Assembly: GCA_029263415.1 (NCBI GenBank)
Contig: JAJCXN010000055.1
Location: 62,001 to 126,000, forward strand
Direction: 5' to 3'
From: Acidobacteriota bacterium
GTDB lineage: Bacteria > Acidobacteriota > Thermoanaerobaculia > Multivoradales > Multivoraceae
Length of the DNA: 64,000 nucleotides
The notes under the pieces are model-generated. The model worked only from the letters and a program-made list of their open reading frames with translations, searched no databases and was not told the DNA's origin. The translations under genes and the position numbers were made by a program. Of the stretch, positions 22,172 to 25,197 are shown in pieces; within the stretch, counting starts at the first letter, position 1, and each line of letters starts with the position of its first letter.

Positions 22172-23956
22172 ATGAAGACCCGACGAATCAGTCCCTTGAC
22201 CTTGATTTTGCTGTCCTTGCTTGGGCTGGCCCTGCTCGGGACCACCGTTGCAGGTGCCCAGGCGTCTCCGCTCGAAGAACAGCCGGCAGTGGTTGAAGAA
22301 GCACCAGCCGACCCTGAAGATGCCGGCGAGCGAATCAATGAGCAGGTGAACGAGGCTGCAACGCAAGCAGGCAGCTTGGTGTCGAGTGACCGCGAAGCGA
22401 CCCTTCCTAGTGTGAGCGACGTTCGTGAATCAACGACTGCGGCGTGGGAGACGTACTTGGTGCCGATGTGGAGTCGTTTCGTCGAGGTGTTGCCGACGGT
22501 GCTCAAGGCGGTGGGGCTTCTGGCGGCGTTTTGGCTGGCGGCTGTGATTCTCGGGTGGGTGGTGACTCGACTGCTTAGCATGACCGACCTCGACAACCGC
22601 TTGGCCCGTGATCTCGGCATGGAAGATCGTATGGCCGAATGGGAGAAGAACGGGACGTCGCTCGAGAAGATGGCTGGCACTGCGGTCAAGTGGGTCGTTC
22701 TGTTGTTTGGTTTCGTTGCCTTCTTTGAGGCTCTGCAGTTGACGATGGTTGTAGGGCCTCTCAACAGCATTCTCGATAGCGTCGCGAAAGCGATCACCAG
22801 TTTGCTGACGGCGTTCGCCGTCCTTGCACTCTATTGGGCTGTGGGCACGCTACTGAAGATAGCGCTGAGCCGCGGTCTGAAGACCATGGGCTTCGACGAA
22901 CGTGCGGAGCGTTTTTTGAAGCCGCGTGAGGTCAAGGGGCAGATGGTCGGCCCGTCCGACATGGTGGGCCGCCTGGTCTTCTACGTCGTGTTGCTGTTCG
23001 GTCTTCCGACCTTCCTGCAAGCGCTGCAACAAGAAGCTGCGGTCGCGCCGCTGCGCGACATGATGACCAAGTTCTTCGAGTTCCTCCCGAACGTTGTCGC
23101 TGCCTTGATCCTGGTCTTTATTGCACGGATCGTGGCAACCATTGTGCGCGAGATCGTCACGAATTTTCTCGCAGCTACTGGAGCAGACGGGTTCGCTCAG
23201 CGCTTTGGTCTGGGCACATCAGAGAAGAGCCGCAAGCTGTCTGAGATCGTCGGATCGGTCGCGTTCTTCTTTGTGATGATCCCGCTCTTGGTTGCTGCCG
23301 TCGACAGTCTTCAGATCGAGGCGATTTCAGAACCAGTCAAGAGCACCCTCGAACAGGTGCTTGCAGCGATCCCGCTGATGATCGTCGCCTTCTTGGTGAT
23401 GGCGGTCGGTTTCTTGGTGGCGCGTACGGTGCGGGGCCTGGTTGAAGGCTTCTTGCGCGGTGTCGGCTTCGACACACTGCCCGAACGAGTTGGGCTCACC
23501 TTCTTGATGCCCAAGGAGGGCGGTCAGAGTCTCTCCACCATCGCCGGATCGGTGGTGATGGTGGTGATCCTGCTGTTGACTGCGCAGCAAGCGCTGTCGA
23601 GCTTGGAGCTCTTCCAGTTCTCCGAGCTATTGGGCGATCTGCTCGGCTACCTACCGATGTTGCTGGTTGGAGTGTTCATCATCTTGGCTGCACTGAGCCT
23701 TGGCAACTATGTCTCGGACGTCGTGGGTCAGCTCGCGTCTGGCTCGGGACACGGCAAGGTTGCCTCCGGGGTCGCGCGCTGGGCAATCTACTTCCTCGGC
23801 TTCAGCATGGGCTTGAACCAACTGGGGGTTGGAGAAGAGATCATCCGCATTGCAGTTGCCGCGGTGCTAGGTGGCGCAGCTCTCGCGCTAGGCCTTTCGT
23901 TTGGTCTTGGTGGCCGCGATCGTGCGAAGGAAGTTGTGGAGAAGTTCGGGAAGTAG
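22172..23956 (+). CDS. Multi-pass protein with repeated TM_helix domains (CmpX-like)
   Basis: A 594-residue membrane protein with AAGGAG 10 bases before the ATG and a signal-like first helix ending VAGAQAS. After an acidic stretch to about residue 95 it shows some ten hydrophobic helices in a repeated pattern: each unit has a long helix, a Gly-Phe-Asp-type turn (for example KTMGFDERAERF, TGADGFAQRFG, RGVGFDTLPERVG), then two helices. That is the conserved TM_helix repeat of proteins annotated as mechanosensitive-channel-related (CmpX type). The cytoplasmic beta domain of MscS is absent. A role in membrane tension or stress response is inferred. The gene diverges from the DUF481 barrel gene. 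Confidence 0.75.
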   Translation: MKTRRISPLTLILLSLLGLALLGTTVAGAQASPLEEQPAVVEEAPADPEDAGERINEQVNEAATQAGSLVSSDREATLPSVSDVRESTTAAWETYLVPMWSRFVEVLPTVLKAVGLLAAFWLAAVILGWVVTRLLSMTDLDNRLARDLGMEDRMAEWEKNGTSLEKMAGTAVKWVVLLFGFVAFFEALQLTMVVGPLNSILDSVAKAITSLLTAFAVLALYWAVGTLLKIALSRGLKTMGFDERAERFLKPREVKGQMVGPSDMVGRLVFYVVLLFGLPTFLQALQQEAAVAPLRDMMTKFFEFLPNVVAALILVFIARIVATIVREIVTNFLAATGADGFAQRFGLGTSEKSRKLSEIVGSVAFFFVMIPLLVAAVDSLQIEAISEPVKSTLEQVLAAIPLMIVAFLVMAVGFLVARTVRGLVEGFLRGVGFDTLPERVGLTFLMPKEGGQSLSTIAGSVVMVVILLLTAQQALSSLELFQFSELLGDLLGYLPMLLVGVFIILAALSLGNYVSDVVGQLASGSGHGKVASGVARWAIYFLGFSMGLNQLGVGEEIIRIAVAAVLGGAALALGLSFGLGGRDRAKEVVEKFGK

Positions 23957-24020: not shown

Positions 24021-24116
24021 GTTGTCGCATCTGAGGACTAGTGAGTGCGCCATTGAGGCGGCTTTGCGTATAGACACTCGATAGACGTGGACCAGCTTGA
24101 ATCCGTACTTGTTCTC

Positions 24117-24608
24117 ATGAAACAGACCATCGGACCGGTGATCCTTGTGACAGTGCTGTTGGGTCTTGCGGTCGCCAGGGTGGCTCCCGGGCTCGCCGAT
24201 GCGATCGAGAAGAGCAAACAAAAGAAGGCTATGTCGTTGGTCCGCGATATCGGTAGCTTGTCCTTTGGTGGTGGAGAGTGGGGTCAGTTGGCGGAGTGGC
24301 AGACGGACTTGTGTGCACGTCGGACAGATGGCGGTCCAGCGGCGGTCATTCTGAGCGAACCTGAGCTGCGCAAGATGCTTGCGATGAGCGGCGCTAGTGC
24401 GGTCGAGATCGATGAGCTGGGAAGCTTCGCTTCGATCGAGGCTGGGACCTACTGCAACTGCGACGGGGGCTTCCTCTGGATCAAGGCTGGCGACGTGGTT
24501 TGGAGCGACGGATACTTCATCTCGCGGCCTTCCGGACTCAGCGGCGATGGAGTCACCGCGGGCTGGAAAACGCATCCTAAGAATTGCCAGACGGATCCTT
24601 CGTCGTGA
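24117..24608 (+). CDS. Cys-rich exported protein of an unrecognised family, paralogue 1
   Basis: A 163-residue protein with one N-terminal hydrophobic helix (about residues 5-24) and a small soluble domain. It aligns without a single gap to the next gene over all 163 residues, with 77 identities by hand count (47%). The shared core is CARRTDGG, an Ala/Leu-rich helix, GTxCNC, LWxKxGDVVWSDG and FISRPSGL. Four Cys (66, 113, 115, 157) are conserved, enough for two disulfides outside the cytoplasm. The start at the ATG at 24117 was chosen because it makes both copies the same length; a GTG at 24087 is possible. I do not recognise the family. Confidence 0.65.
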   Translation: MKQTIGPVILVTVLLGLAVARVAPGLADAIEKSKQKKAMSLVRDIGSLSFGGGEWGQLAEWQTDLCARRTDGGPAAVILSEPELRKMLAMSGASAVEIDELGSFASIEAGTYCNCDGGFLWIKAGDVVWSDGYFISRPSGLSGDGVTAGWKTHPKNCQTDPSS

Positions 24609-24705
24609 ACGGAGCTTCGAAGACTGGGGACCCTCGCGGACGTTTCCCGGTATCGAGTCGTTGGTCTGATTGGCGTTGGGTTACTTTGGCCCACACCTTG
24701 GCGTC

Positions 24706-25197
24706 GTGAAGCGGATCCTCACCCGAGTTGTCTTGGGAGTAGCGCTGCTAGCGGTCGTGATTTCGTGGGTAGATCACGAGATCGAACATGCTGTAGCCAA
24801 GAGCGAAGAAAGGATGGCTATGTCATTAGCTCGTGAGACCGGGTTTTTGCTTCTCCGGGGTCAGCAGTTTCTGCCTGTTGGGACGTGGAGGCGCGAGTTC
24901 TGTGCTCGCCGTACCGATGGAGGTTCCGCCGCAGTTGCGCTGAGTTCGGGCGAACTACACGGGATGCTGATTGCGGCTGGAGCCGGCGCGAGTGAGATCG
25001 CGGACCTAGGGCCCCTGAGTGCGATCCAGGTGGGGACCTTTTGCAACTGCGGCGGCGGTGGGCTCTGGCTCAAGGTGGGCGACGTGGTGTGGAGCGACGG
25101 CACCTTCATCTCACGACCGTCTGGACTGAACGGTGCCGGACTCGAGGGGAGCTGGGTAACGCAGCCTCCCGACTGTCAGTCGGAATCTTTGTCGTAG
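24706..25197 (+). CDS. Cys-rich exported protein of an unrecognised family, paralogue 2
   Basis: The tandem partner of the gene at 24117, also 163 residues from a GTG start at 24706 (a TTG at 24670 lies in frame). It keeps the membrane helix (about residues 7-22), all four Cys and the CARRTDGG, CNC, GDVVWSDG and FISRPSGL motifs. The regions that differ most are the membrane helix and residues 45-65. The core is more conserved than a simple structural domain would require, which suggests a binding site around CNC and GDVVWSDG. The last 22 bases overlap the end of the oppositely oriented symporter gene. Function unknown. Confidence 0.65.
   Translation: MKRILTRVVLGVALLAVVISWVDHEIEHAVAKSEERMAMSLARETGFLLLRGQQFLPVGTWRREFCARRTDGGSAAVALSSGELHGMLIAAGAGASEIADLGPLSAIQVGTFCNCGGGGLWLKVGDVVWSDGTFISRPSGLNGAGLEGSWVTQPPDCQSESLS

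Follow-up and report, generated by a model that had tools for sequence, protein, structure and literature searches.

The DNA analysed here is a stretch of 64,000 nucleotides from an Acidobacteriota bacterium of the class Thermoanaerobaculia (contig JAJCXN010000055.1, positions 62,001 to 126,000 of the forward strand), and the whole of it is referred to as the window. Two adjacent genes, P0001 and P0002, lie in tandem on its forward strand (Table 1). The start of P0001 is uncertain, as a GTG at 24087 is also in frame and open. The GC content of the two genes (0.60 and 0.61) is close to that of the window (0.60). No sigma-70-like promoter was found near the pair, and the two terminator-like stems seen there do not exceed the chance expectation. 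The neighbouring genes encode a mechanosensitive-channel-like protein with four PF05552 repeats, an SDF symporter and a PF10023 aminopeptidase, none of which is pilus-related. A further copy of the gene for the channel-like protein (22172-23956), 40% identical, lies at C38:162483-164273 of the same genome.

Table 1. Genes and sequence features of the tandem pair, in window coordinates.
Feature	Position	Strand	Remarks
P0001, probable leaderless pilin-derived protein, N-terminal anchor and cysteine head, 163 aa	24117..24608	+	stop codon to 24608; coding 24117-24605
P0002, tandem paralogue of P0001, 163 aa, GTG start	24706..25197	+	stop codon to 25197; coding 24706-25194
P0001 hydrophobic anchor, residues 5-23, probable remnant of pilin alpha1N, P7 at the pilin Glu5 site	24129..24185	+	
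P0002 hydrophobic anchor, residues 4-22, R7 at the pilin Glu5 site	24715..24771	+	
P0001 CARRTDGG, residues 66-73, contains Cys66	24312..24335	+	
P0002 CARRTDGG, residues 66-73, contains Cys66	24901..24924	+	
P0001 GTYCNC, residues 110-115, contains Cys113 and Cys115	24444..24461	+	
P0002 GTFCNC, residues 110-115, contains Cys113 and Cys115	25033..25050	+	
P0001 GDVVWSDGYFISRPSGL, residues 125-141, counterpart of the pilin C-terminal D-I-V-W-A-D-G-Y-F motif	24489..24539	+	
P0002 GDVVWSDGTFISRPSGL, residues 125-141, counterpart of the pilin C-terminal D-I-V-W-A-D-G-Y-F motif	25078..25128	+	
P0001 Cys157 codon, in the C-terminal tail missing from aligned pilins	24585..24587	+	
P0002 Cys157 codon, in the C-terminal tail missing from aligned pilins	25174..25176	+	

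An earlier note on this DNA had described the two products as 163-residue proteins that align end to end without gaps, and BLASTP confirms this, with 77 of the 163 residues identical, 107 similar and no gap (E 2e-53). The four invariant cysteines it had pointed out occupy identical positions in both proteins (66, 113, 115 and 157), and the conservation is indeed clustered in motifs, 60 of the 103 residues between 61 and 163 being identical. The membrane helix was said to have drifted; identity there is 6/28 over residues 1-28, and the differences are spread 13/13/13 over the three codon positions, which is the expectation under relaxed constraint. Over the entire genes, the differences per codon position are 53/53/82, and the Nei-Gojobori method yields a dN of 0.41 and a dS, near saturation, of 1.18, which gives a dN/dS of about 0.35. 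For residues 61-163, the ratio is about 0.29. These codon-position and dN/dS figures indicate that the globular part is genuinely under selection and that this selection, as judged by comparison of the two genes, is purifying. Neutral drift, which the note had named as speaking against its proposal, is thus not what is found. The selected fold that it proposed stands; the binding site does not follow, since the C-terminal motif that is most conserved comes from the pilin head (see below). Unlike that motif, CARRTDGG and GTxCNC, which hold cysteines, are novelties of P0001 and P0002.

The two proteins had also been considered to belong to no recognisable family. Pfam and PHROGs give no family for either of them at E<=10. 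In NCBIfam, P0001 only is matched by TIGR01710 (GspG; E 0.053), with residues 8-43 on profile positions 8-43; its 13.6 bits lie below the curated cut-off of 88.85 bits, and PF08334 does not match either. Against the sequences of solved structures, the pair finds unrelated weak matches only (E 0.09 or worse). The absence of a family is, nevertheless, not borne out, as intermediates from the same order link both proteins to type IV pilins and GspG. A whole-genome protein search of 60 relatives gave weak matches (E<=1) in 47 of them, the own genome counted, and in many of these a match to residues 7-51 and another to residues 124-143 fall within one frame. Almost every matching protein that was fetched is a type IV pilin that combines a GFTLIE start with a D-I-V-W-A-D-G-Y-F ending, and the named contigs carrying this pilin subfamily are mostly from Thermoanaerobaculia or Acidobacteriota. 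P0001 and the genome's own pilin have in common the pilin helix (DAIEKSKQKKAMSLVRDIG and DALQKSKQKVTMSDERTIG) and, following it in the same order, the C-terminal motif (DVVWSDGYFISRPSGL and DIVWADGYFIRRPGGL); P0002 shares mainly the latter with pilins. By BLASTP, P0001 and the genome's own pilin are identical at 46 of 165 positions (E 7e-9). The two best own-genome pilins are the top two PF07963 matches in the genome, and their pilin identity is therefore independent of P0001; this offsets the mild circularity that arises because the intermediate pilins were first gathered by their similarity to P0001.

Profiles built from these pilins recover the pair as well. An HMM of 31 pilins of the order scores P0001 at 39.0 bits, in two stretches and in the right order, and P0002 at 12.0 bits, against -0.3 bits for the best of 40 shuffles. 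In a profile-profile comparison with 23 pilins from named contigs, the pair is aligned with a probability of 96.6% (E 7e-10) over residues 4-50 only, which fall on the pilin helix from T2 onward. A head profile made from nine pilins, without P0001 and P0002, gives five matches at E<=10 in the own genome of 6.9 Mb: the two canonical pilins, a head behind a Sec signal on contig C51, P0001 (E 0.010) and P0002 (E 0.20). Against the fetched head ORFs, the best BLAST scores are 48.5 bits for P0001 and 32.3 bits for P0002, and the shuffle maxima (200 of each of three kinds) are 29.6 and 30.4 bits, respectively. Residues 51-163 of P0001 alone reach 33.5 bits, with a shuffle maximum of 27.7. Thus, the alignments demonstrate homology in the helix and in the C-terminal motif. 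The pilin link is strong for P0001, and that of P0002 rests on its paralogy with P0001 and on the C-terminal motif (mainly 17 residues). Most likely, the two proteins are distantly related to the GspG-like type IV pilins found in their own order (class Thermoanaerobaculia, Acidobacteriota).

The nearest named pilins are two GspG-like proteins of the same genome (G000:C4:93531-94085 and C15:323123-323641). Shared with these, in the same order, are the helix motif DA(L/I)(Q/E)KSKQK...G and the C-terminal D-(I/V)-V-W-(A/S)-D-G-Y-F-I-x-R-P, P0002 sharing mainly the latter. The long alpha1 helix, hydrophobic and then amphipathic, is present (residues 4-50 by profile-profile alignment, 5-50 in the models), and the C-terminal D-I-V-W-A-D-G-x-F...P motif of the Thermoanaerobaculia pilin subfamily is retained. 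Unlike these pilins, the pair has neither leader nor Glu5, a shorter head, four cysteines and an extra C-terminal tail. In the mid-head, D114, W116 and S138 (motifs D-x-W and S-x-G) are invariant in the 23 pilins, and the pair has a gap or other residues there. The mid-head of the pilins (DGWG, GxDG) cannot be aligned with P0001 and P0002, and the same holds for the region of the calcium-binding loop, which Korotkov (2009, cited in PMC5131608) is reported to have described as a feature of GspG. At the N-terminus, pilin F1 aligns to residue 3 of both proteins, and the prepilin leader, with Gly/Ala at -1, is therefore missing altogether; neither the start at 24117 nor that at 24087 of P0001 supplies one. 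The Glu5 of the mature pilin is replaced in both (Table 1). In a passage of one review, the leader-bearing signal defines prepilins, and Glu5 acts in docking into the filament (PMC10191384). With both of these gone, the prepilin peptidase is not expected to cleave P0001 and P0002, nor are the two expected to be assembled into a filament. By the defining N-terminal features, and as far as sequence can tell, they are pilin-derived and not pilins.

It may be argued that the two still take part in the filament as minor pilins, occupying the tip, where a subunit devoid of Glu5 is known to sit; tip minor pilins without Glu5 are described in part of the same review (PMC10191384). The genome also encodes a prepilin peptidase (region C4:91182-91508) and canonical pilins. 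Against this stands the fact that no region is less conserved than the helix, the part that packs in the core of a filament, and the pair is not located near pilus genes. Tip pilins (GspK) retain the leader for the prepilin peptidase; P0001 and P0002 do not have it, whichever start is taken. Drift in the helix alongside conservation of the head makes it unlikely that the pair works in the filament core, and the tip position is likewise regarded as unlikely.

Each protein has one hydrophobic stretch (Kyte-Doolittle 19-mer mean of 2.26 for P0001 and 2.41 for P0002), and it is from this stretch and the flanking charges that export is suggested. The charge around the P0002 helix is +2 before and -3 after, which favours an N-in/C-out topology; for P0001 it is +1 before and +2 after, which is ambiguous. 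The greater positive charge behind the P0001 helix, together with the four invariant cysteines and their C-x-C, would agree with membrane-bound proteins that face the cytoplasm and hold a four-cysteine metal site. We consider this to be improbable, as the charges of the gap-free paralogue P0002 favour the opposite orientation and the homology with pilins implies a periplasmic head.

The structure models point in the same direction as the pilin homology, though at low confidence. With the two sequences alone, AlphaFold2 predicts a helix at residues 5-50 followed by four strands within residues 107-136 (pLDDT 56.9), and with 23 pilins added it predicts the helix 5-50 again (pLDDT 61.1). VIA-align places pilins or pseudopilins in rows 1, 2, 4, 5 and 11 of 13 for the two-sequence model (top Z 3.7) and in rows 1, 2, 4, 6 and 19 of 25 for the pilin-augmented one (top Z 4.4), with all Z below 8 for either model. 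Among the best 50 Foldseek matches of both models, there is no pilin. Owing to the low Z and this Foldseek result, the models are support for, and not proof of, a pilin fold. The four predicted strands (pLDDT about 60) may correspond to the antiparallel-sheet head of pilins. The low-confidence model, along with the lack of a Pfam match and the weak scores of P0002, may be taken to mean that the pair is unrelated to pilins and that the N-terminal helix and the short WSDG motif have converged. Such convergence is quite improbable, given that the two motifs are ordered and in register, that shuffles never reach the observed scores and that the head profile singles out five matches in a whole genome.

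The pair has a very narrow distribution. Orthologues were found in one of 72 genomes of the order and in one of 396 genomes of a sample of the phylum, which in both cases is the own genome. Pattern matches to the pair in a collection of genome contigs (159) and in viral contigs (163) yielded no confirmed case, and plasmids and phages gave no match. Relatives of the upstream mechanosensitive-channel gene occur in G002 and G003 (three of the eight genomes searched, the own included), but neither of them has a relative of P0001 or P0002 next to it (best tblastn E 1.1); in G003, the contig ends about 630 bases past the gene. The lost leader and Glu5, the shortened head and the missing orthologues could suggest functionless pilin paralogues in decay, which is very improbable in view of two intact, gap-free frames of 163 codons that have diverged to 47% identity with a dN/dS of about 0.35 and motif-clustered conservation.

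The explanation that we favour, with a probability of roughly 0.6, is that P0001 and P0002 are pilin descendants which have lost the leader and Glu5 and are kept as membrane-tethered, cysteine-stabilised proteins off the filament. The ancestor would be one of the GspG-like type IV pilins of Thermoanaerobaculia. It is proposed that the prepilin leader and Glu5 were lost, the head was shortened and the four cysteines and the C-terminal tail were gained, and that a tandem duplication after these changes gave rise to the two genes. The N-terminal helix would then serve as an uncleaved signal anchor and leave the head in the periplasm, possibly as a small pilin-type domain of helix plus sheet held by disulfides. 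One disulfide may join Cys66 to Cys113 or Cys115. This would correspond in place to the disulfide of the Thermus type IV pilin TTHA1221 (PDB 4BHR), which is described as joining the alpha/beta loop and the first beta-strand (part of PMC5131608). TTHA1221 is matched by VIA-align with both models, at low Z (3.2 and 3.6), and, unlike the pair, it is a pilin within a pilus system. A second disulfide may tie down the tail via Cys157. Off the filament, our best guess for the putative role of P0001 and P0002, perhaps paired with each other, is that of a module tethered in the periplasm for binding or regulation.

Some of the features of the pair are seen elsewhere. Its closest architectural parallel appears to be L201 (G003:C296) of the same family, a standalone single head with an uncleaved pilin-like helix (...PNFLDAMEKARQKRT...) and no prepilin motif; unlike the pair, it keeps the head motifs DGWG and GRDG, has cysteines only in the anchor region and is not in tandem. 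L146:2649-3263 and L151:2965-3582 also have a leaderless, uncleaved pilin helix, followed by a PF08334 (T2SSG) head (E 6e-7 and 1.6e-8), and differ in the zinc ribbon ahead of the helix and in a head of normal length. In some protists, mitochondrial GspG is reported to be kept although the prepilin peptidase is absent (part of PMC10128026); in contrast to the pair, it carries a different targeting sequence and probably functions in a T2SS-like machine.

The pilin head itself is widespread, with profile matches in 71 of the order's 72 genomes. The fetched stretches hold 121 distinct head ORFs, which are a selected and not a random set (drawn from the matches listed, with 20 regions picked for low score or long frame, and with only three of the single-copy genomes of genus g2, 21 in all, contributing). 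Of these ORFs, 85 carry a prepilin motif, six run off a contig end and 30 lack the motif. The classes were assigned by script and then by reading, L175 and L181 (GFTAVE) and L198 (GFSFIE) being counted as having the motif; P0001 and P0002 are below the threshold used for this count. Four of the motif-less ORFs (L143, L144, L147 and L150, from G036, G029, G026 and G034) are BlaR1-type M56 peptidases with a pilin head at the C-terminal, sensor end. Their M56 domain is matched by PF05569 at E 1.6e-50 or better, and a BlaI-type gene (PF03965) adjoins in all four. The 30 also include two proteins composed of zinc ribbon, pilin helix and PF08334 head, an ankyrin protein, a DUF2059 protein, L201 and double-head proteins. 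In L133-L140, there are two pilin heads per protein; most have a signal-like N-terminus, and several carry, at the C-terminus, D-G-F-E-(S/T)-G or a motif resembling it.

It is an evenly balanced proposition that the Thermoanaerobaculia pilin head has become independent of pili as a general extracytoplasmic module, which may be placed behind an uncleaved helix or a Sec or lipoprotein signal, doubled, or fused to a zinc ribbon, an ankyrin or DUF2059 protein or the sensor end of a BlaR1-type M56 peptidase beside BlaI. P0001 and P0002 would then be the most derived case, with a cysteine-stabilised core replacing the conserved head loop. The literature search, which covered a collection of open-access papers, found no earlier account of Thermoanaerobaculia pilins or of BlaR1/M56 proteins with a pilin head (T2SSG, PF08334). 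Known pilin evolution, as outlined in a section of PMC10191384, mostly consists of foreign domains grafted onto pilins that remain in the filament, whereas in the present case it is the pilin that has apparently departed from it. Such an exit offers a natural test that separates the pilin features used in assembly (leader, Glu5, helix core) from those used by the head. The wider occurrence of such heads, those at the BlaR1 sensor position included, suggests a hitherto unstudied module for periplasmic recognition in a phylum that has received little study.

A few further observations were made on pilin heads and pilin genes. The own-genome head on contig C51 (G000:C51:39783-40043; L006, L059; matched by the head profile at E 2.8e-8) follows a Sec-like signal peptide and lies between two large membrane-protein ORFs, after GntR-like and ABC-ATPase-like ORFs (named by reading). 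On contig QEVT01000056.1, L072:712-1731 encodes a pilin head on a protein whose sequence, with an LAAC motif, resembles a lipoprotein rather than a prepilin. Some pilins of the order (L020, L029, L030, L033 and L035) have a cysteine pair upstream of WADG, and the own-genome pilins are without it. Canonical pilin genes are often paired about 2.1-2.2 kb apart, as in G026:C48, G024:C33, G027:C132, G035:C301 and G048:C580.
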